Shown in pieces: positions 13,042 through 25,589 of a stretch of 25,589 bases of DNA. This DNA comes from a virus. Both the position numbers and the translations under genes were made by a program. Within the stretch, counting starts at the first letter, position 1; each line of letters opens with the position of its first letter. Location of the stretch: positions 1 through 25,589 of the IMG/VR virus record IMGVR_UViG_3300020419_000076. One strand, 5' to 3'. A model generated the notes under the pieces. It searched no databases, was not told where the DNA came from, and saw nothing but the letters and a program-made list of their open reading frames with translations.

Positions 13042-13362
13042 CTAAGACTGTAAATCTTGTATGTTTCCAAAAATAGATTCGTAAGTTAGCTTACCCTCTG
13101 TTGCTTTAATTATTTGATGAGCTTGTTTTATAGACGGATTTCTATATCCATATCTCCAAGCTTTTATTGATGCTTCAGAACAATCAAAAGTTTCTGCTGC
13201 TTCTTTTACACCTAAAAACTCAATAAAGTCTTTGAGTGAATAGTGTTGCACTTTCTTGTTTTGAAACTCAGGCTCAAGTCCAGATTTTTTTAGATTTTTT
13301 AATGCCTGGTCTGATATTTTTTTTTGACGGTGGTAGTAATTAGCTTTCCAAATTTCATTCAT
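13042..13362 (-). CDS. Small HTH transcriptional regulator, Cro/CI-like
   Basis: A 106-aa protein with a helix-turn-helix at about residues 43-78: SLKDFIEFLGVKEAAETFDC followed by SEASIKAWRYGYRNPS, the arrangement of Cro/YdaS-type DNA-binding domains (helix, 'AAE.F' turn, recognition helix 'S..SIKAW..G.R.P'). It is too short for a CI-type cleavage domain. AAGAGGAG is well placed before the ATG. It is the first gene of the leftward replication/lysis operon and faces the Sak4 gene across an intergenic region with the ATAGT/ACTAT repeats described separately. It probably represses its own divergent promoters and perhaps early promoters at the right end. Confidence 0.75.
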   Translation of the reverse strand: MNEIWKANYYHRQKKISDQALKNLKKSGLEPEFQNKKVQHYSLKDFIEFLGVKEAAETFDCSEASIKAWRYGYRNPSIKQAHQIIKATEGKLTYESIFGNIQDLQS

Positions 13363-13384: not shown

Positions 13385-13413
13385 TTTACACATAGTATAG
13401 TATAGACTATAAT
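13385..13413 (+). promoter_or_regulatory. Sigma70-type promoter for Sak4/SSB genes with operator-like repeats
   Basis: TTTACA (13385-13390), a 17-base spacer and TATAAT (13408-13413). The spacer carries ATAGT repeats and an ACTAT half-site (ATAGTATAGTATAGACTAT, 13392-13410). It lies between the divergent HTH and Sak4 genes. A weaker leftward promoter for the HTH gene is possible on the opposite strand (TTGAAT with TATACT or TACTAT), overlapping the same repeats. Confidence 0.6.
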
Positions 13414-14187: not shown

Positions 14188-14667
14188 ATGGTAGATTTTG
14201 CAGACGTAGATTTCATTGATAGTATTGATGAAATGCCTATAGGCCCAAGTGTGGCACCTGAAGGAACTTATCCTTGTAAGGTAATTGAAAGTGTTAAGTA
14301 CCAATCTAAATCAGGTAATAATACTTTGAAGATTACTTTCCAAGTAGATAACGGTAAGTATAAAGATCATGTTGAATACTTTAGTCTTTGGCACCCAACC
14401 GAAGATGTTAGAAGGATTGCAACTGAAAAGTTTACTAGATTAGCTAAAGCTGTCGGGTTTAAAAAGTACCCAGATGATGCTTCAGCTTATGTTGGTAAAG
14501 AATTACTAATGAATCTCAGAAATGTAGATGAAGATTGGAAAGATAATGACGGTAATACTCGTACTACGACAAAAACTGTCGTCAGGTCTTATGAATTTAA
14601 GAACGACTTTCCTCAATCATCTGAGTCTGCGTCAGAAGATTCAGAAGTAAGTCCACCTCCTTTTTGA
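14188..14667 (+). CDS. DUF669-family, probable ssDNA-binding protein
   Basis: A 159-aa protein of the DUF669 type: APEGTYPCKVIESVKYQSKS, then LKITFQVDNG, VEYFSLWHP and later GKELLMNLRNVDEDW. The core resembles an OB-fold strand arrangement. The C-terminus is Ser/Glu/Asp-rich and ends in Pro-Pro-Pro-Phe, similar to the acidic, Phe-terminated tip of bacterial SSB that recruits partners. It follows the Sak4-like gene, so the pair probably works as annealase plus SSB. The last 55 bases overlap the 3' end of a gene on the opposite strand. Confidence 0.75.
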   Translation: MVDFADVDFIDSIDEMPIGPSVAPEGTYPCKVIESVKYQSKSGNNTLKITFQVDNGKYKDHVEYFSLWHPTEDVRRIATEKFTRLAKAVGFKKYPDDASAYVGKELLMNLRNVDEDWKDNDGNTRTTTKTVVRSYEFKNDFPQSSESASEDSEVSPPPF

Positions 14668-14939
14668 TTGATAAAATCGAAGGGGGAGTCTTGTATATGC
14701 TCTCCCTTCACCAACACCCCAACAGAATCATCTAATAACTTTCTAATAATAGCAGGAAACTCTGCTCTTTCTGGCTGCATATCCATAGTCCAAACTAAAT
14801 CTGAAAAAGATTGTTTAATTTCTTCGTAACGAGGCACTATTTGACAAAAGTAAGACTCTAATTTTTTATTTTTTTTTGATAATTCATCAACTTTTTTTTC
14901 TAAAGTTTCTATATAAATATCTTTATTTATTTCTGTCAT
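14613..14939 (-). CDS. Hypothetical coiled-coil protein
   Basis: A 108-aa protein starting MTEINKDIYI. The start at 14939 is chosen over longer options because GAGG lies about seven bases upstream and because it follows directly on the stop of the MT-A70 gene. Residues about 10-50 are a Lys/Glu/Leu heptad-like helix (LEKKVDELSKKNKKLE), probably coiled coil; the end is Ser/Asp-rich. It is the last gene of the leftward modification operon and its 3' end is antisense to the DUF669 acidic tail. Function is unknown. Confidence 0.6.
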   Translation of the reverse strand: MTEINKDIYIETLEKKVDELSKKNKKLESYFCQIVPRYEEIKQSFSDLVWTMDMQPERAEFPAIIRKLLDDSVGVLVKGEHIQDSPFDFINQKGGGLTSESSDADSDD

Positions 14940-14940
14940 A

Positions 14941-15486
14941 TTAAACCTCGTTACCCCATACATCCCAACCTGGAGTTTTTTCTCTAGCAAATAACTCTAT
15001 TCTTGGTAAATCTCCACAAAGCTCAACTATTTTTTCTCGTACACAGTCAGGCTTTTTGGAATGTTGTTCTCTTTGTGACATTACTATACTTGATACCTTA
15101 TTGCTCACAGGTTTTACCTTGCCTCTGATACCCATTAAGCACAACTCAGCATTTGATTTCGTGTAATACCCTATACCGAAAAAAGGCTTACCGTTTTTCT
15201 TATTAGTCTTTACCCAATTAAATCCTATTGTTTTGTAAGTAAATCCCCAATTCTCAAATGTTTTGATTGCTTCATTTAACAAAGGAAAAGTTACCCATAA
15301 AAATAAATAACAATTTTCATCTGCAATACTTTCTACTGGAAGATTATAAATATCTTGCATAGGCATCGTTTCATAATGCACAGTAGCTCCGCCACAAAGT
15401 CTTTTATGTTTATCTCTTTTATCATTGTAAGACCAAGCTGGATCTGCATAAATGATGTTGTATTTTTTATCTGGAAAAGAAATCAT
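14941..15486 (-). CDS. MT-A70 family N6-adenine DNA methyltransferase
   Basis: A 181-aa protein. Residues 10-20 read NIIYADPAWSY; DPAW is the catalytic (D/N)PP(W/Y) motif of MT-A70-type methyltransferases. The family pattern continues with MPMQDIYNLPVESIADENCY, LFLWVTFPLL, FNWVKTN and near the end RIELFAREKTPGWDVWGNEV. The length is that of the minimal phage family. It transfers a methyl group from S-adenosylmethionine to adenine N6 in a short DNA target that cannot be read from the sequence. GGGAGG sits seven bases before the ATG. It is encoded with two C5-cytosine methyltransferases and no visible restriction nuclease partner. Confidence 0.85.
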   Translation of the reverse strand: MISFPDKKYNIIYADPAWSYNDKRDKHKRLCGGATVHYETMPMQDIYNLPVESIADENCYLFLWVTFPLLNEAIKTFENWGFTYKTIGFNWVKTNKKNGKPFFGIGYYTKSNAELCLMGIRGKVKPVSNKVSSIVMSQREQHSKKPDCVREKIVELCGDLPRIELFAREKTPGWDVWGNEV

Positions 15487-15488
15487 AA

Positions 15489-15644
15489 TTACCTCCCTTG
15501 ACCTCTGTATCTTAATTTTTGTTGTCTCCTTTTGTGTTTATTCATTGTGCTAGTCATTGTATTTTTATGTATGCCTTGGCTAGTTTTTTTTCCCCTAGAA
15601 CCACAAACAGAATTATGTTGTTGAAAGTTTTTTGTTTTTTGCAT
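15489..15644 (-). CDS. Small basic protein, 51 aa
   Basis: An ATG ORF of 51 codons filling the gap between the 87-aa gene (stop two bases upstream of this ATG) and the MT-A70 gene. The product is very basic, rich in Lys, Arg, Gln and His, and ends KHKRRQQKLRYRGQGR. There is no clear Shine-Dalgarno, so translation would rely on coupling to the upstream gene. Its last codons (GGG AGG) form the ribosome binding site of the MT-A70 gene. It may bind nucleic acid; no family is recognised. It could be a chance ORF, but its tight fit in the operon argues for a gene. Confidence 0.45.
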   Translation of the reverse strand: MQKTKNFQQHNSVCGSRGKKTSQGIHKNTMTSTMNKHKRRQQKLRYRGQGR

Positions 15645-15646
15645 AA

Positions 15647-15910
15647 TTATTTTATGTTTAATTTAATGATTTCAAAAGCAACTGATACTTTTGTTAATTT
15701 TTTTTCTGCCTTTTCTAATCTTTCTTGATTGCCATTATCTGTCCAATCATCTGCAACTTCGTTGATAAAATTTTCCAAAATATTAACGGCTTCATTTACA
15801 GTTTCCACTACTTCAGATTTTTCATGCTGTTCTTTCAAATTATTCCAAAGTGCTTGATTATATTCTTCTTCGGCTTTTTTATTTTTCTTTTTTCTTCTTG
15901 TAATTTTCAT
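15647..15910 (-). CDS. Hypothetical small helical protein
   Basis: An 87-aa protein with a Lys/Arg-rich start (KITRRKKKNKKAEEEY) and a helical remainder alternating Glu and Lys. It begins in an ATGA overlap with the stop of the C5 methyltransferase gene. Only a weak GGAT motif lies before the ATG, so coupling is likely. No domain is recognised; the basic N-terminus followed by an acidic helix could suit a small nucleic-acid or protein adaptor. Position in the modification operon is the only clue to function. Confidence 0.55.
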   Translation of the reverse strand: MKITRRKKKNKKAEEEYNQALWNNLKEQHEKSEVVETVNEAVNILENFINEVADDWTDNGNQERLEKAEKKLTKVSVAFEIIKLNIK

Positions 15911-17475
15911 AAATCCATATTTTTTAATATGTGTGCAATTACATCAATAGTCCAGCCGTTGCCTAACATTTTAAATCTCTGCGTCTTAGAAACGCAGCTT
16001 GTGTAATTGTCTGGAACTGTTTGTAATCGTTCGCACTCTAAAGGCAGAAGTTTTCTCCAAGATAGATTTTTTTCACTTACAGCTACATTATCTTTTTCTA
16101 CTGAACTTAAAGCATTACTCTTATTATCTTTTCTAAGCTCTAACATTTGTTTAGGCTTAGAGTCTTTCCATACAACTCTTTTTCCATTTGCATCGATAGA
16201 TCTAGCCCTCCAAGCTCCAGATACGACTTTAGGTTCTCTATTTCCCCCTTGCATAGTATTTAGTGTGGGCGACTTGCCTTCTGGCGAGTACACTCTTTTC
16301 AAAACATCATGTCCATTTATATCTGAAGCGATACCTACTTGTATAGGTTTGGTTTCCACAAGCTTTTCCGCATGAGCAGATGTTAATGTTGGAGATTTTC
16401 CTTCTTGGCTATAAACTCTTTGAGTGCTTTCATAGACACCATCTCTAATTTCAAATTCCATAATAGATTTATCAAATTCATTCGTTGTAATATTAAGTAT
16501 TTCTTTTAACTTGGGCCAATGTTCTTCTGAAGGTATAGAAAAAAAATCGCTACCTTTTTTTCTAAAATAATGTTCAACGGTTGAGTAGCTATCATTTAAA
16601 TCTTTTGCTATTTCTTTTTTAGTTTTATTACACTTAGCAAATTGATTTAAAATACATTCTTGTAGCTTAGGTATATCTACCTCATATTTTCTTACTTTTA
16701 CTTTTTCAATAGCTAATCCAACTTGTTTAGGTTTAGTTTCTTTTGGAGAAATAAAATCTTTTTTTATCCAACTTTGTATTTGTCCTTTATACATTGTGGC
16801 AGTCAAAGTTTTAGATTTACCAACATCAATATGCCTAACTTGATTAGCTCTTGGTTCCCCATGAAAATGATTTTTAAGATATTGTGGAACTTCTTCTTGC
16901 CATTCTTCTTCCGCAATTAAAATATCTTTTAAAACTATTGCTTTGTCCTTTGGCTGTTCAATATTAGGTATATTTGTCCAATACAACCTCAATCTATTTT
17001 GAGCACTCAATAAAGCTGAATTTATGAGAATAGGTTTTATTTTACTACCAAATAAATCATCCCCTTGATAATCAGGATAACACTCAGAAACTTGGTCAGT
17101 AATAACATCTTGAAATTGTTGTTTCATTCTGACATTTTCTAACAAAAAATATTTTGGTTTTATTTCTTTTAGCAATCTTATAAATTCAAAAAACAAAGCT
17201 GAACGAGGATCATCAAAAGCTAACTGCTTACCTGCAAAACTAAATCCCTGACACGGACTGCCAGCTAGAATTAAATCTATATCTTTGTAGTCCTCAGATT
17301 TTAATTGGCAAACATCTCCAACATGTATTGTTTTAGGAAAGTTTTCCTTAGCTACTTGAATTGCATACTTATCTATTTCACTCGCATAATAAGTATCAAC
17401 TTCAATACCAAGTTTTTGCAAAGCTAATTGTCCGCAACTCATGCCGTCAAATAAACTTAATACTCTAATCCCCAT
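15907..17475 (-). CDS. C5-cytosine DNA methyltransferase with HTH insert in target-recognition region
   Basis: A 522-aa C5 methyltransferase with the canonical motif order: motif I LSLFDGMSCGQ (residues 7-16), motif IV GSPCQGFS with catalytic Cys75, motif VI ENV (113-115), motif VIII QNRLRLYW (159-166), motif IX LECERLQTVP (479-488) and motif X LGNGW (504-508). The stretch between VIII and IX (about 170-470) is unusually long. It holds four related blocks (GKSKTLT at 219, GKSPTLT at 359, GKSPTLN at 400, NKSNALS at 451) and, at about 275-330, a helix-turn-helix-like insert (KKEIAKDLNDSYSTVEHYF...IPSEEHWPKLKEIL). It methylates cytosine in phage DNA, target unknown. GAGG is well placed before the ATG. 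No restriction partner is visible. Confidence 0.85.
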   Translation of the reverse strand: MGIRVLSLFDGMSCGQLALQKLGIEVDTYYASEIDKYAIQVAKENFPKTIHVGDVCQLKSEDYKDIDLILAGSPCQGFSFAGKQLAFDDPRSALFFEFIRLLKEIKPKYFLLENVRMKQQFQDVITDQVSECYPDYQGDDLFGSKIKPILINSALLSAQNRLRLYWTNIPNIEQPKDKAIVLKDILIAEEEWQEEVPQYLKNHFHGEPRANQVRHIDVGKSKTLTATMYKGQIQSWIKKDFISPKETKPKQVGLAIEKVKVRKYEVDIPKLQECILNQFAKCNKTKKEIAKDLNDSYSTVEHYFRKKGSDFFSIPSEEHWPKLKEILNITTNEFDKSIMEFEIRDGVYESTQRVYSQEGKSPTLTSAHAEKLVETKPIQVGIASDINGHDVLKRVYSPEGKSPTLNTMQGGNREPKVVSGAWRARSIDANGKRVVWKDSKPKQMLELRKDNKSNALSSVEKDNVAVSEKNLSWRKLLPLECERLQTVPDNYTSCVSKTQRFKMLGNGWTIDVIAHILKNMDL

Positions 17476-17668
17476 TAGTCCTCGTATAAAAAATAGTAAA
17501 AGATTTTGTTGTTTTATTTGTTATTTTTTTTATTGTACATTCAGGAGATAAAGCTTTAACTTTTTTAAAAGCATGTTCAAAAGAAAGACAATCAGATGCT
17601 TGTATAATTTTTAATTTATCTCCTTGCTGAACTTCAGCTTGATAATCATGTCTAACTTCTAAGCTCAT
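17465..17668 (-). CDS. Hypothetical small protein before C5 methyltransferase
   Basis: A 67-aa protein starting MSLEVRHDYQ. The ATG at 17668 is preferred to an upstream TTG at 17674. It overlaps the preceding 46-aa gene by 17 bases and the following methyltransferase start by 11 bases. Sequence suggests a strand-rich small fold (DYQAEVQQGDKLKIIQASD, then KSFTIFYTR). The Shine-Dalgarno is weak. No function is recognised. Confidence 0.5.
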   Translation of the reverse strand: MSLEVRHDYQAEVQQGDKLKIIQASDCLSFEHAFKKVKALSPECTIKKITNKTTKSFTIFYTRTNGD

Positions 17669-17792
17669 CTTCAATATTGAGTATGTGTTTTGACCTTGCT
17701 ATAGGGTCTGCGATATACATTCTATAGATACAATCATCTTTATAATCAAATCCCAATATCACTTCTCCTTCAACTTTATAATAACTAATCAT
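17652..17792 (-). CDS. Small protein, 46 aa
   Basis: An ORF of 46 codons starting at an ATG that overlaps the stop of the upstream 214-aa methyltransferase (ATGATTAG), with AGAGG about nine bases upstream inside that gene. The product begins MISYYKVEGEVILGF and reads as a small acidic strand/helix protein. It links the methyltransferase to the 67-aa gene by overlaps on both sides, which supports it as a real gene. Function is unknown. Confidence 0.55.
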   Translation of the reverse strand: MISYYKVEGEVILGFDYKDDCIYRMYIADPIARSKHILNIEDELRS

Positions 17793-18429
17793 CTTGTTTT
17801 TCCTCTATTGTAGTAATTTCTGAAAATAAATCCAGGAACAAATTAGGAGGAATAATACCTCTTTCATAAGCTCCTTTTAATCCTTGAGTGCCAGTTTTAG
17901 ATCCTCTTGGAGCTGGTTCATGGTGGCAATTTTTGTTGCCGTTAAAACACATGGGTCTTGCAGTAAAATCAAAATTAGTCCATATATCCGTAGGCTTCAT
18001 TCTTTTATCTCCATAAGAGCAGTAAGTAATAGTTTTTTGGTATGGGTGTTCTTTGATTACATCTAACTTTCTTAATTTGCCTCTAGGGTTTTCTATAAAA
18101 TAATACTTAGGCTTTAAAGTGCTTATAATTGAATTTGTTTTCTTGACTATTTCCATACCTAGCCTAGCCTCTTCTGTTTTTGGAGTGTGGTCTTTATTCC
18201 AATGTTTGCCTATTGAAGCTACGGAAAAGAAAGTGCATGGGGGACTAGCCCAAATTATATCTGGAAAGCCATTCTCTAAAACATAAGTGCTAATATTAAA
18301 GTCAAAAATATTACAAACTAAATCGACTTCTTCAAATGGGTGTATGTCTAATGTATAAGTTTCATGTCCTAAATCCTTTGCTACTTTACTAAAGCTCCTT
18401 GACCCCGCAAACAGTTCTAATGTTTTCAT
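17785..18429 (-). CDS. Compact C5-cytosine DNA methyltransferase
   Basis: A 214-aa protein with C5 methyltransferase motifs: motif I LELFAGSRSFS (residues 4-14), Asp28 in TLDIHP, motif IV WASPPCTFFSVAS with Cys65 as nucleophile, and motif VI FIENPRG (111-117). It lacks a recognisable large target-recognition domain and the motif IX/X block of classical enzymes; a Cys/His cluster (Cys161, Cys168, His169, His170) may bind metal. This compact type is frequent in phages. It most likely methylates cytosine at C5, but a role on another substrate cannot be excluded. AAGGAG precedes the ATG. Its first 41 bases are shared with the upstream 42-aa gene in another frame. Confidence 0.75.
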   Translation of the reverse strand: MKTLELFAGSRSFSKVAKDLGHETYTLDIHPFEEVDLVCNIFDFNISTYVLENGFPDIIWASPPCTFFSVASIGKHWNKDHTPKTEEARLGMEIVKKTNSIISTLKPKYYFIENPRGKLRKLDVIKEHPYQKTITYCSYGDKRMKPTDIWTNFDFTARPMCFNGNKNCHHEPAPRGSKTGTQGLKGAYERGIIPPNLFLDLFSEITTIEEKQDD

Positions 18430-20258: not shown

Positions 20259-20360
20259 ATAAGGCTTTCATCATTATTTTATTTTTTTCATTTTTGTCAT
20301 AAGAAATAGAAGAAAATACCCTTTAATACTCTAAAGTTCTTGACAATATAATAGTCGGGA

Positions 20361-20428
20361 GTGTACCCTTGCTACACACTATTGGGAGAATGGTGGGAGG
20401 AGGTCGTATTAGAATACGCTAAAACATC
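20361..20428 (+). promoter_or_regulatory. Structured leader of small terminase gene with hairpin-bridged ribosome site
   Basis: GTGTA/TACAC (20361-20365 with 20373-20377) forms one hairpin. The strong Shine-Dalgarno GGGAGGAGGT (20395-20404) ends 24 bases before the ATG at 20429, too far for normal use. CGTAT and ATACG (20405-20409 with 20414-20418) form a hairpin immediately after it that would bring the effective distance to about 10 bases. A TATAAT lies at 20347-20352 with a poor -35. Confidence 0.5.
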
Positions 20429-23201: not shown

Positions 23202-23237
23202 ATCATTCTCCTTTAATTATTTGTTTACTATCAGTAT

Positions 23238-23265
23238 ATTATAGACACAATTTATAGGATTACAA
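23238..23265 (-). promoter_or_regulatory. Leftward early promoter
   Basis: On the - strand TTGTAA (23260-23265), a 16-base spacer and TATAAT (23238-23243). GATAGTAAAC, the element present in the rightward promoter spacers, lies just downstream (23223-23232) where a repressor would block initiation. Confidence 0.6.
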
Positions 23266-23544
23266 TAAGTATCTATAAAAAATAATAAAAAATATCTAGT
23301 CGTGTCAATAACAAAAGGAAATCGCATTACCCCTCTCGCTTGGTCGCTTTCTATAAAAAAAAGCAATTATTCTCAACCTGGAAGCTAAGTTATAAGTCGG
23401 CTCACATGTCGGGAGTCGGTTTAAAAAGTGTCGGGTGGTTATTAGATAAGATTACACACAATTTTAGCACATCCAGGGCTCATCCAGGAGATCTCTTTTC
23501 TGGCTTCTGCAGGAACACATTTGGAGTACAGGAGAACTTTTTGG
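23266..23544. other. Noncoding stretch with GTCGG repeats and GC-rich patch
   Basis: No supported gene. It contains GTCGG at 23396, 23408, 23415 and 23430 (all + strand), an ACACACA run at 23453, and then a GC-richer patch (23467-23530) with three CCWGG sites nearby (23377, 23473, 23484), the palindrome GAGATCTC (23488-23495) and CTGCAG (23507-23512). It is the first copy of the recurring right-end cassette. Confidence 0.6.
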
Positions 23545-23573
23545 TTTACAAATAGTATAACTAAAAGTTATAA
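23545..23573 (+). promoter_or_regulatory. Possible upstream promoter with palindrome
   Basis: TTTACA (23545-23550), a 17-base spacer and TTATAA. The first bases, TTTACAAATAGTA, match the right-end promoter element. A perfect inverted repeat TATAACT-AAA-AGTTATA spans 23556-23572. Confidence 0.4.
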
Positions 23574-23612
23574 GAATTGTTTACTTTATGTAAAATTAAT
23601 CTAAAAAAATAG

Positions 23613-23641
23613 TTGACAAATAGTAAACTATCTGACATAAT
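23613..23641 (+). promoter_or_regulatory. Strong sigma70-type promoter for 74-aa gene
   Basis: TTGACA (23613-23618), 17-base spacer, CATAAT (23636-23641). The spacer contains the perfect palindrome ATAGTAAACTAT (23620-23631), a good operator candidate. Confidence 0.75.
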
Positions 23642-23673
23642 GCACTCATAACTTAAACAAAAAAGGAGAAATT

Positions 23674-23898
23674 ATGACTAAAAAAGATTACGAACTAATA
23701 GCTCAAGCGATTAGAGATAATACCGAATGGGTAAGATATGAAGATAAATGGGGAGAAACTGTTACAGAAAGAAAAATACACCCTACTGAAATAATGGCAG
23801 AGTTAAGTATTGCTTTTGAAAAAGAAAATCCTAAATTTAACAAGTTTAGATTTTTTGACGCTTGTAAAAAACCTTATCCTAAAGCTTGGGAGAAATAA
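23674..23898 (+). CDS. Small conserved-type phage protein, 74 aa
   Basis: Starts MTKKDYELIAQAIRDNTEWV with AAAGGAG well placed before the ATG, downstream of a near-consensus promoter. It is a single-domain helical protein with FEKENPKFNKFRFFDACKKP at the end. The 'M[TK]KKDYELIA.AI' start is common among small proteins of marine phages and of AT-rich phages generally, with no assigned function. Probably early expressed. Confidence 0.7.
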   Translation: MTKKDYELIAQAIRDNTEWVRYEDKWGETVTERKIHPTEIMAELSIAFEKENPKFNKFRFFDACKKPYPKAWEK

Positions 23899-23899
23899 T

Positions 23900-24031
23900 A
23901 TGATTAGATTTACAATTAATTGTCCTGACGATTTATCTGCCAAAGTTGTGAGAAAAGTTTTAGAAGAAAGTTTTTATCCTGATTTTTATAAAGAACTGAA
24001 TATCTCCGAAAAAACTATAGAAGAAGAATAA
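23900..24031 (+). CDS. Small protein, 43 aa
   Basis: Starts MIRFTINCPDDLSAKVVRKV, two bases after the stop of the 74-aa gene, with GGGAG upstream. A longer ORF in the same frame reaches back into the 74-aa gene, but this ATG has the ribosome site. Strand-helix start with a 'CPDDLSAKVVRKVLEE' helix. Function unknown. Confidence 0.6.
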   Translation: MIRFTINCPDDLSAKVVRKVLEESFYPDFYKELNISEKTIEEE

Positions 24032-24164
24032 GTCGGGAGCAGTCGGGGGAGCTTTAGCTCCCCCAAAAAAAATACCAAGAAAAATACATACACAAAGGAA
24101 CACATCTGGATCTAGAGCCCTGGGATCTCGCCAGATTGCTTCATACATCCTATAAATTTATTTG
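24032..24164. other. Noncoding stretch, second cassette copy
   Basis: Starts with AGTCGGGAGCAGTCGG directly at the stop codon, then the perfect hairpin GGGGGAGC-TTTA-GCTCCCCC (24045-24064) followed by an A run rather than a T run, then ACACAAAGG and a GC-richer patch (24101-24135) with two GATC sites, TCTAGA and CCTGG, flanked by TCTGG/CCAGA. Confidence 0.6.
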
Positions 24165-24192
24165 TTGACAATTAGTAATCAAATGCTATTAT
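24165..24192 (+). promoter_or_regulatory. Sigma70-type promoter for 121-aa gene
   Basis: TTGACA (24165-24170), 16-base spacer beginning ATTAGTAATC, TATTAT (24187-24192). The ACAATTAGTAA word is shared with the promoters at 25539 and, inverted, at 19753. Confidence 0.65.
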
Positions 24193-24223
24193 TTAAGTTC
24201 ATTTATTAAACGGAGAAAAAGAC

Positions 24224-24589
24224 ATGAATGAAAAACTAAACGATTGCCAACTTCAATTAAGAAGTATGGTTGACCAATATGCTGACGACTGCACAAGTGG
24301 CGAAATGCAGTTTTACGACTCTGAAGCTAAAAACTATTACGAGCCGTACGATTGGGATTACTGTGTTAATCGCCTGGGCGAAATGGAAGATGTAATGGTA
24401 CTGCTTGCTGGTGGTGGGCCAACTATTTGGTTAAACACTAGAGAACAAGTAGTGGAGGGTTATTGGGGTAGCGATAGCTACAAAAAGCCAATATATGATT
24501 ACGAATATATAATTGAATACTTTGCAGAGCATTACAACGCTATGGAAAGCCAAAAAGCTATTAACTTAAATAAAAGGGGGCAGTTATGA
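24224..24589 (+). CDS. Hypothetical early protein, 121 aa
   Basis: Starts MNEKLNDCQLQLRSMVDQYA with ACGGAGAAA upstream. The core VMVLLAGGGPTIWLNTREQV then VEGYWGSDS is a compact motif I associate with small phage proteins of unknown function; the rest is acidic and rich in Tyr. Its stop overlaps the next ATG (ATGA). Probably early expressed from the promoter at 24165. Confidence 0.65.
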   Translation: MNEKLNDCQLQLRSMVDQYADDCTSGEMQFYDSEAKNYYEPYDWDYCVNRLGEMEDVMVLLAGGGPTIWLNTREQVVEGYWGSDSYKKPIYDYEYIIEYFAEHYNAMESQKAINLNKRGQL

Positions 24590-24750
24590 GTAGTCCTTCT
24601 AATCAAGAGTATTTTGAGTTCTTAGACGATATGCGTGAGTTTGGTGGTGTGAATATGTTTGCAGCTCCAAAAATGCTCAGAGAAAGTTTTGACTTAGATA
24701 GACAAGAAGCAGCGAAAATCTTCAAAGCTTGGACTGACCAATGGAGTTAG
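24586..24750 (+). CDS. Small protein, 54 aa
   Basis: Starts MSSPSNQEYFEFLDDMREFG in an ATGA overlap with the 121-aa gene, with AGGGGG upstream. The C-terminal half, MLRESFDLDRQEAAKIFKAW, follows the 'L...F.L...EA..I...W' pattern of a recurring small phage protein family. It is a helical protein of unknown role. Confidence 0.65.
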   Translation: MSSPSNQEYFEFLDDMREFGGVNMFAAPKMLRESFDLDRQEAAKIFKAWTDQWS

Positions 24751-24803
24751 GTTGTTTGCTTGTTCTTGGTATCTTAGTGTTAGATTATATATTTGACAGC
24801 TAA
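24741..24803 (+). CDS. Candidate 20-aa membrane peptide
   Basis: An ATG inside the last codons of the 54-aa gene opens 20 codons: Met-Glu, then a hydrophobic run LGCLLVLGILVL and the end DYIFDS. It would be a single short membrane helix. The ribosome site is unclear. A terminator follows 20 bases later, so it would be the last gene of the transcript. It may be a chance ORF. Confidence 0.3.
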   Translation: MELGCLLVLGILVLDYIFDS

Positions 24804-24823
24804 CAGTCGGAGTCGGAACTTAT

Positions 24824-24857
24824 AAAGGGGGGTGTGTAAAAGCACTCCCTTTTTTTA
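24824..24857 (+). terminator. Rho-independent terminator
   Basis: AAAGGGGGGTG (24824-24834) pairs with CACTCCCTTT (24843 onward), an 11-pair stem with two G-U pairs, followed by a T run. Confidence 0.75.
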
Positions 24858-25173
24858 TTATCTAAACACAAGCACACGCTGAGATCCCCAGGGGGAGATT
24901 GGTATGGTTGTCGGTGTCGGGTGTCGGGCTACAACTCCTATTCTATATAGGGTTTGGTGCAACCATATATATACACACATATCCCGAAATGATCTGGATC
25001 CTGCGTGATGCAGACATCAATGCTCTCTTGAAACCTTTATATATAAGGGTTTTCTCACTACTGTCGGAGTCGGAGCTTCCCCCAGGGGCCGAATTTCTCT
25101 GGATTTGGCTGGAGTTTTTATATATACACAAGTAGGAGCTGTGGCCAGTTGATGCTGTGGCACATATTTGGAG
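24858..25173. other. Noncoding stretch, third cassette region
   Basis: No supported gene. In order: ACACAAGCACAC, a patch with GATC and CCCCAGGGG (24886-24894), a triple GTCGG run (24910, 24916, 24923), ACACACA, a patch with GGATCC (24996-25001), the near-palindrome AAACC...GGGTTT (25031-25052) followed by TTC, a GTCGG pair (25063, 25069), a second CCCCAGGGG (25080-25088), and a patch ending CACATATTTGGAGT just before the next promoter. Confidence 0.6.
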
Positions 25174-25201
25174 TTGACTTGCTGATTACTAATAGTATAA
25201 T
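25174..25201 (+). promoter_or_regulatory. Sigma70-type promoter
   Basis: TTGACT (25174-25179), 16-base spacer containing ATTACTAATAG, TATAAT (25196-25201). It drives a short leader without a normal gene. Confidence 0.6.
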
Positions 25202-25211
25202 AATAGGTAAG

Positions 25212-25279
25212 CTAAGGAGTGCCTTAGTGAAAATTAAATAACCATTCAGGAGAATATAATGAAAAAACTTGACAAATAG
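25212..25279 (+). promoter_or_regulatory. Leader with SD-sequestering hairpin and micro-ORFs
   Basis: The perfect hairpin CTAAGG-AGTG-CCTTAG (25212-25227) covers an AAGGAG. A GTG (25227) opens a four-codon ORF, and after CAGGAG an ATG (25259) opens a six-codon ORF (Met-Lys-Lys-Leu-Asp-Lys-stop). The second micro-ORF overlaps the next promoter. Confidence 0.4.
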
Positions 25280-25296
25280 TAGAACTTTGCTAATAT
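25269..25296 (+). promoter_or_regulatory. Sigma70-type promoter of candidate small RNA
   Basis: TTGACA (25269-25274), 16-base spacer beginning AATAGTAGAAC, TAATAT (25291-25296). Confidence 0.6.
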
Positions 25297-25302
25297 TTGT
25301 TG

Positions 25303-25380
25303 GTCAATAATAGCTTTTGCTATTCTTGGTCATAATGTCCCAAATTGAAACCCTTAGTCTCGGCTAGGGGTTTCTCTTTA
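25303..25380 (+). ncRNA. Candidate ~78-nt small RNA with terminator
   Basis: Transcription from the promoter at 25269 would start near 25303. The region has no ORF of note. It contains a perfect hairpin AATAGC-TTTT-GCTATT (25309-25324), a repeat of TTGGTCA on both sides of it, and ends in an 11-pair terminator hairpin (GAAACCC...GGGTTTC, 25347-25374) followed by TCTTTATT. This is the layout of a short regulatory RNA. Expression is not shown by sequence alone. Confidence 0.45.
25347..25380 (+). terminator. Rho-independent terminator
   Basis: GAAACCCTTAG (25347-25357) pairs with CTAGGGGTTTC (25364-25374) through one G-U pair, loop TCTCGG, then TCTTTATT. Confidence 0.7.
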
Positions 25381-25538
25381 TTGGGCGACTGAAGTCGGTA
25401 GTCGGGTTTGCATTACCAGCATCCCAGGAGCTGAAGCGAAAAAATTTTATATAAAACACACATAGTTGGGATCCTGCCTGGGAGATCTCTGGCACATCAT
25501 TCTGCGATATGGTTGTCTTGAGCTGTTTAAATTAGGGG
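25381..25538. other. Noncoding stretch, last cassette copy
   Basis: GTCGG pair (25394, 25401), CCAGG at 25424, ACACACATAG, GGATCC (25469-25474), CCTGG at 25477, GAGATCTC (25482-25489), then CTGGCACATC and the final promoter. No gene. Confidence 0.6.
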
Positions 25539-25567
25539 TTGACAATTAGTAAACTATCTGTTATAAT
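25539..25567 (+). promoter_or_regulatory. Perfect-consensus sigma70 promoter
   Basis: TTGACA (25539-25544), a 17-base spacer holding ATTAGTAAACTATCTG, TATAAT (25562-25567). It points out of the right edge of the window. Confidence 0.8.
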
Positions 25568-25589
25568 AGATTTATCTTTAATCAAAAAC

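Follow-up and report, generated by a model that had tools for sequence, protein, structure and literature searches.

Mobile regulatory cassettes of T4-type phages, the promoter early stem-loop (PeSL) elements, were reportedly described by Arbiol in 2010 and Comeau in 2014. PeSLs are multicopy cassettes of an early promoter and a stem-loop, which lie between small exchangeable genes and are tied to modular shuffling (PMC4503421, PMC3950731). We analyzed a 25,589-bp stretch of viral DNA, the complete IMG/VR virus record IMGVR_UViG_3300020419_000076, classed as linear and referred to here as the window, in which noncoding stretches repeat an array of GTCGG pentamers, an ACACA stretch, a GC-rich patch and a promoter. 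The nearest known system to these cassettes is that of the PeSLs, the likeness being an analogy in how the two would work and not in descent.

In common with PeSLs, the cassettes described here have early-type promoters at their ends, matching 11 to 12 of 12 consensus bases, and several copies flank exchanged genes. A terminator stem-loop was recognized at 40 of 115 arrays, most having none at the threshold used. The phage is not T4-type (its closed relative is 53 kb long and has a PrimPol-type primase), and the cassettes add oriented GTCGG and ACACA arrays and a seam of GATC and CCAGG words. The haloarchaeal virus HGTV-1 likewise has a repeated, promoter-linked intergenic motif, a promoter with an inverted repeat before most left-arm open reading frames, which was proposed to regulate and shuffle genes; it differs in being an archaeal virus with a TATA-box-like motif, and pentamer arrays are not described in the excerpt on which this comparison rests (PMC3950731). 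The SAS and ESAS elements of cluster K mycobacteriophages are repeated, mostly one-orientation intergenic elements before small genes (PMC3203893), but SAS are located where translation begins and ESAS is an inverted repeat of 17 bp, whereas the pentamer direct repeats lie about 100 nucleotides upstream of the −35 box (mostly 93 to 166). Cluster O mycobacteriophages carry more than 30 copies of a 17-bp dyad repeat, for which deletions by recombination between copies were inferred (PMC4351075); that repeat is a single palindromic motif, without orientation and partly coding, while the present cassettes are composite, oriented and strictly inter-operon. No earlier description of these cassettes was found in the literature searched, an open-licence subset. 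What is new is the arrays, their orientation and the factor presumed to read them.

The original prediction held that four + strand stretches of the window share a common order of parts, and all of the parts were found. The stretches at 23391-23660, 24032-24215, 24751-25210 and 25381-25589 each read (GTCGG)n, ACACA, a GC-rich patch holding GATC and CCAGG, and a TTGACA-type promoter with a TAGTAA-type spacer. The description of the third stretch needed amending, as it has three arrays instead of one. The cassettes and the genes in the slots between them are as follows, with L082 denoting a related contig.

23396..23434, + strand: cassette 1 GTCGG array, words at 23396, 23408, 23415 and 23430
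23452..23535, + strand: cassette 1 ACACA stretch, then GC-richer patch with CCAGG and AGATCT (from sequence words)
23613..23641, + strand: cassette 1 promoter, TTGACA-17-CATAAT, spacer AATAGTAAACTAT, 11/12 consensus bases, conserved in L082
23674..24031, + strand: slot 1, exchangeable small genes of 74 amino acids (23674-23898) and 43 amino acids (23900-24031)
24032..24063, + strand: cassette 2 GTCGG array, words at 24032 and 24042, running into a GGGGGAGC hairpin
24084..24150, + strand: cassette 2 ACACA stretch and variable GC-rich patch (GGATCT, CCCTGGGATC), from comparison with L082
24165..24192, + strand: cassette 2 promoter, TTGACA-16-TATTAT, spacer TTAGTAATC (promoter scan)
24224..24750, + strand: slot 2, genes of 121 and 54 amino acids (open reading frames and map of relatives)
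24806..24900, + strand: cassette 3a, GTCGG pair, terminator 24824-24853, ACACA-type stretch, GAGATCCCCAGG patch, no promoter
24910..25013, + strand: cassette 3b, three GTCGG words, TATATATACACACA, GATCTGGATCC patch, no promoter
25063..25201, + strand: cassette 3c, GTCGG pair, CCCAGGGG, TATATATACACA
25174..25201, + strand: cassette 3c promoter, TTGACT-16-TATAAT (promoter scan)
25394..25500, + strand: cassette 4, GTCGG pair, AACACACA, GGGATCCTGCCTGGGAGATCTC patch
25539..25567, + strand: cassette 4 promoter, TTGACA-17-TATAAT, spacer TTAGTAAACTAT, 12/12 consensus bases

Words were counted in the 1,293 nucleotides of noncoding DNA and compared with 500 shuffles. GTCGG occurred 15 times against 0.47 expected, a count reached in none of the 500 shuffles, and its reverse complement was absent; ACACA occurred 11 times against 1.3 expected, with a single reverse complement; and CCWGG occurred 7 times against 1.8 expected (p 0.002). 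These three words exceed their frequency in shuffled sequence. GATC was only weakly above chance in the window (8 against 3.8 expected, p 0.03), and under-represented in the remainder of it (37 against 60 expected); its enrichment became strong only across relatives (132 against 29 in 80 cassettes). Promoter-like sites with 11 to 12 of the 12 consensus bases, at 23613, 24165, 25174 and 25539, each followed such a stretch. The total of 14 promoter-like sites was not above that of the shuffles (11.3), and therefore only the strength, placement and conservation of the sites count.

Relatives were gathered by primase and terS; the resulting sets of cassettes and arrays share ancestry and are not independent samples. 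In each array-bearing genome, the tight GTCGG arrays were confined to a single stretch and a single strand. ACACA lay within 120 nucleotides downstream of 98% of 116 non-redundant arrays, compared with 17% of random positions, 18% when the upstream side of arrays was scored and 20% where GTCGG stood in isolation. Within 200 nucleotides of the same arrays, CCAGG was found at 72% (random, 18%) and GATC at 85% (random, 47%), and a strict promoter pattern accompanied 34% of them, against 7% at random. The 80 non-redundant full cassettes contained 196 ACACA words against 17 expected, with 4 reverse complements, and 77 CCAGG words against 6.6, with 29 reverse complements. When 2.9 million viral contigs were scanned for the composite, 58 matched, against 11 for a reversed-word control; 54 of the 58 were AT-rich and had the full syntax, and the other 4 were GC-rich chance matches.

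Between orthologous cassettes, identity was 98.9% in the GTCGG words, a figure somewhat inflated because the arrays were found by the word itself, 91% in ACACA, 85% in the linkers, 80% in the promoter and 68% in the GC patch. This gradient from word to linker to patch, with the order kept in 80 to 116 non-redundant cassettes, supports the proposal that the parts look functional and not recently duplicated, and the comparison with related phages extended the conserved order far beyond the contig of the window. Spacing of words within arrays peaked at 5, 7 and 8 nucleotides, with no peak at the helical turn. Titration of a CsrA-like protein by GGA was considered and rejected, since GTCGG is followed most often by G, which makes this pentamer, and not GGA, the conserved word. 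A G-quadruplex is not the conserved property either, because GGG runs fit in some distant arrays and the arrays of the window, by inspection, mostly have GG only.

The genes between the cassettes are exchanged. Among ten close relatives mapped, the order of cassettes was constant while the intervening gene families varied: slot 1 held family F4, F12 or F5, slot 3 held F6/F7 or was empty, and slot 4 held F11, F7 with F14, or was empty. The 74-amino-acid gene of slot 1 had 62% DNA identity to that of L082 between flanks of 94% and 89%, and the patch of cassette 2 had diverged from L082 with the flanks on both sides kept. The consecutive window arrays at 24806, 24910 and 25063 look like two emptied slots, because relatives carry genes at these positions, including that of cassette 3a. 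In a wider set, where 5′ halves were at least 93% alike, the downstream genes were non-homologous in 147 pairs and homologous in 337, these pairs not being independent. In 22 distinct swaps, similarity ended in the patch in 11, between the array and the last ACACA in 10 and in the gene in 1.

Intrinsic terminators accompanied the arrays on the array strand (the 40 of 115 given above), with 1 on the opposite strand and 3.5% at random positions, an approximately 10-fold enrichment; in the related contig L095 the GGGGGAGC hairpin is followed by a T run. The promoters carry, in addition to the sigma-70 consensus, a spacer element, GTANCC/TAGTAAAC. For comparison with repressor-bound stoperators, in which the repeats equal the operator of the phage repressor, it is TAGTA half-sites, and not GTCGG, that in this clade also occur in a divergent promoter beside a gene for a helix-turn-helix (HTH) protein.

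13042..13362, − strand: repressor-like HTH protein, 106 amino acids (phrog_35 transcriptional repressor, E 7e-8)
13385..13413, + strand: divergent promoter TTTACACATAGTATAGTATAGACTATAAT with TAGTA half-sites, adjoining the HTH gene

The 106-amino-acid protein may be a repressor that binds TAGTA operators. The suggestion that the region holds early promoters is backed by these sequence comparisons. Neither the exchange of genes nor an embedded small-RNA gene formed part of the original prediction.

We consider it somewhat more probable than an even chance that the stretches are inter-operon regulatory cassettes doubling as gene-exchange joints. The 5′ half would end the transcription unit before it, in many cases through an intrinsic terminator, and would hold the GTCGG and ACACA words in their fixed orientation. 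In the 3′ half, a strong host-sigma-type promoter with an operator-like spacer element would drive one or more small early genes that come next. Between the halves, the hypervariable GC-rich patch would be a seam joining upstream and downstream halves of different phages or slots, probably through the phage's own single-strand-annealing recombination; a Sak4-like annealing protein is encoded. From the two-half structure and the seam it would follow that each exchangeable gene receives its own insulated, repressor-controlled promoter, and that the cassette is an exchange joint. On the basis of sequence, we infer that a factor with an effect on transcription binds GTCGG and ACACA and that the patch is a site of recombination. 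Recognition of the words as single strands, in RNA or displaced DNA, is favored because of the strict orientation, the direct abutment of words and the lack of helical phase. Several observations weigh against these proposals. A recognizable terminator was present at only about one third of arrays, at the threshold used, and arrays occur on both sides of terminators, before and after. Because the patch is in any case fast-evolving, the seam signal could be overstated. A late promoter has GTCGG and ACACA and lacks the TAGTA element, and no array lies directly upstream of the promoter before a conserved 80-amino-acid gene (L082:16563) or of a small-RNA promoter at 25269, so an array is not needed for every promoter.

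The location of the cassettes bears on the alternatives. A closed relative, NHFF02000028.1 (53,352 bp), is 99% identical in the cassette-bearing hub, and its ends share a 99-bp repeat, indicating that the genome closes. In it, terS lies at 28.2 kb, the cassettes at 31.1-33.1 kb and terL at 37.9 kb; the hub is therefore internal, with leftward early genes on one side and the late operon on the other, where gene direction changes. The supposed genomic right end is a contig break. Sequence past it is present in L082, comprising two further promoters, small genes, a terminator and genes up to terL, and the gene of the cassette 4 promoter is visible both there and in the closed relative. A genome end or packaging site was rejected on the grounds of the contig break and the internal position.

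The proposal of an origin or packaging control region was not supported, since the region is internal and each genome has several cassettes, each between transcription units and before a promoter. A replication role in another form, which we regard as improbable, would make the arrays iteron-like origins or one-strand loading sites for a primase or helicase, spread through the hub, with their promoter proximity reflecting transcription-primed replication or the position of the hub. The one-strand orientation, short direct repeats and AT-rich TATATA stretches resemble parts of iteron origins, GATC-containing AGATCCA words are abundant (19 against 0.6 expected) and the hub sits at the switch of gene direction; but an iteron origin would be single, the spacing of 5 to 8 nucleotides lacks helical phase, GC skew tracks gene direction with no single switch point, and the primase gene is about 10 kb distant. 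Assuming the E. coli consensus, DnaA boxes were not enriched beside arrays, the exact TTATNCACA occurring once in 80 cassettes; the ACACA stretches resemble this box, but the second T of its TT is usually A. A Dam-controlled origin was also rejected, no Dam being found in the metagenome-assembled genome (MAG) that contains the closed relative, which is possibly incomplete and need not be the host.

If the arrays instead acted in RNA, a protein binding GUCGG and ACACA in read-through transcripts would control termination or RNA stability and so insulate neighboring units. Every word lies on the transcribed-sense strand, words abut without helical phase, as single-strand recognition predicts, and terminator enrichment is limited to the array strand. 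We nevertheless judge this unlikely: no rightward gene precedes cassette 1, and hence no obvious transcript would cross it, a point that, with the placement of arrays on either side of terminators, counts against a role in RNA alone. The patches also lacked an RNA-structure signal (mean z −0.44), and neither an Rfam match nor a tRNA was found. More doubtful still is that the GATC/CCAGG patches are targets of site-specific recombination or of a nuclease, with the flanking words as accessory sites. Similarity stops at the patch in swaps, the patch words are strongly enriched in hypervariable sequence, and the phage encodes two PDDEXK-like proteins and a Sak4-like annealing protein; against this, no integrase or recombinase was noted, there is no fixed core site, and the GATC and CCAGG words differ in number and spacing.

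Beyond the reading of the stretches as regulatory cassettes and exchange joints, we advance a broader, tentative proposal of rather low probability: that GTCGG/ACACA arrays are read as single strands by a phage or host factor and define insulated, portable transcription units for the exchange of host-takeover genes in marine phages, with analogous arrays using other words, such as CAAGC, in pelagiphages. The pelagiphage HTVC027P (MN698241.1) has one-strand CAAGC/GCTTG arrays with a 7-nucleotide period at 16506-16627, 17396-17439 and 17719-17737. These lie between terS and terL, and two abut the TTGACA near-consensus promoters of gp33 and gp34, genes that fall in an extra temporal cluster of the infection transcriptome with high expression at 6-9 h (PMC12753301). 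One-strand pentamer arrays at near-consensus promoters are thus common to both, but in HTVC027P the word differs, the array abuts the −35 box and there is no ACACA block; the parallel is one of analogy, not homology. No such CAAGC arrays were found in HTVC023P. In phage DSL-LC04 (OR003939.1), a 0.7-kb noncoding GC-rich stretch beside terL (14328-15030), dense in GTGGCC/CCCTGG words, is a possible analogue of the cassettes.

Between cassettes 3 and 4 lies a further unit of promoter, hairpin and terminator.

25269..25297, + strand: small-RNA promoter (TTGACAAATAGTAGAAC...), 10/12 consensus bases, conserved in relatives
~25296..25378, + strand: candidate small RNA, hairpin TGGTCAATAATAGC-TTTT-GCTATTCTTGGTCA, linker ATAATGTCCCAAA, terminator 25347-25374

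Its core, CAATAATAGC...ATAATGTCCCAAA, was invariant in at least ten related contigs, and the terminator stem was kept across relatives despite differing sequence. The hairpin varies so little that RNAalifold detected no two-sided covariation; Rfam gave no match. By eye, the linker looks like an antisense sequence to the GGACATTATGA start regions in phage genes, which is suggestive of pairing at most. Directly after the 25174 promoter, L082 (15296-15375, against window 25205-25250) has about 59 extra nucleotides, missing from the window, inside a potential hairpin (CTAAGGCACTTC...GGAGTGCCTTAG), possibly a further structured RNA or leader. Coding potential of 24899-25135 was rejected, its frame being broken by a 4-nucleotide indel relative to L082.

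Upstream of cassette 1 is an element separate from the cassettes.

23202..23390, no strand: divergent region separating leftward early genes from cassette 1, 96% identical to L082 and aligned in 8 relatives
near 23265-23238, − strand: leftward promoter-like site within the divergent region (promoter scan)

This region of about 190 bp is strongly conserved, lacks GTCGG, has invariant GGAAATCGCATTACCC and TAAAAAAA blocks and is partly tandem-duplicated in L095. A conserved TTGACAANNNNNNAGTCGGGAGTGTACCCTTGCTACACAC element with hairpin potential lies just 5′ of terS (20340-20420) and has one GTCGG outside arrays, and three DNA methyltransferase-like genes (one MT-A70, two C5-type) occupy 14941-18429.

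The terS of this phage is distantly related to those of HTVC027P and HTVC023P, and two large virion-module proteins tested had no match among cultured phages. Chance probably accounts for the BLAST matches (E 5e-3) between the hub and phages of Enterococcus and E. coli. NHFF02000028.1 lies unlabelled within the MAG "Gammaproteobacteria bacterium TMED104", through contamination or as a hint of the host; the binning is a weak pointer to the latter.

In marine phages whose hosts are uncultured, small genes with no assigned function are numerous, and a strict, searchable cassette syntax marks the transcription units of such genes. The same syntax shows the sites of gene swaps and points to a factor that would read the arrays. 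It also offers a means of gathering, from metagenomes, interchangeable candidates for host takeover or counter-defence. Because of the HTVC027P parallel, part of the idea can be tested in a cultured pelagiphage for which RNA-seq has been published.

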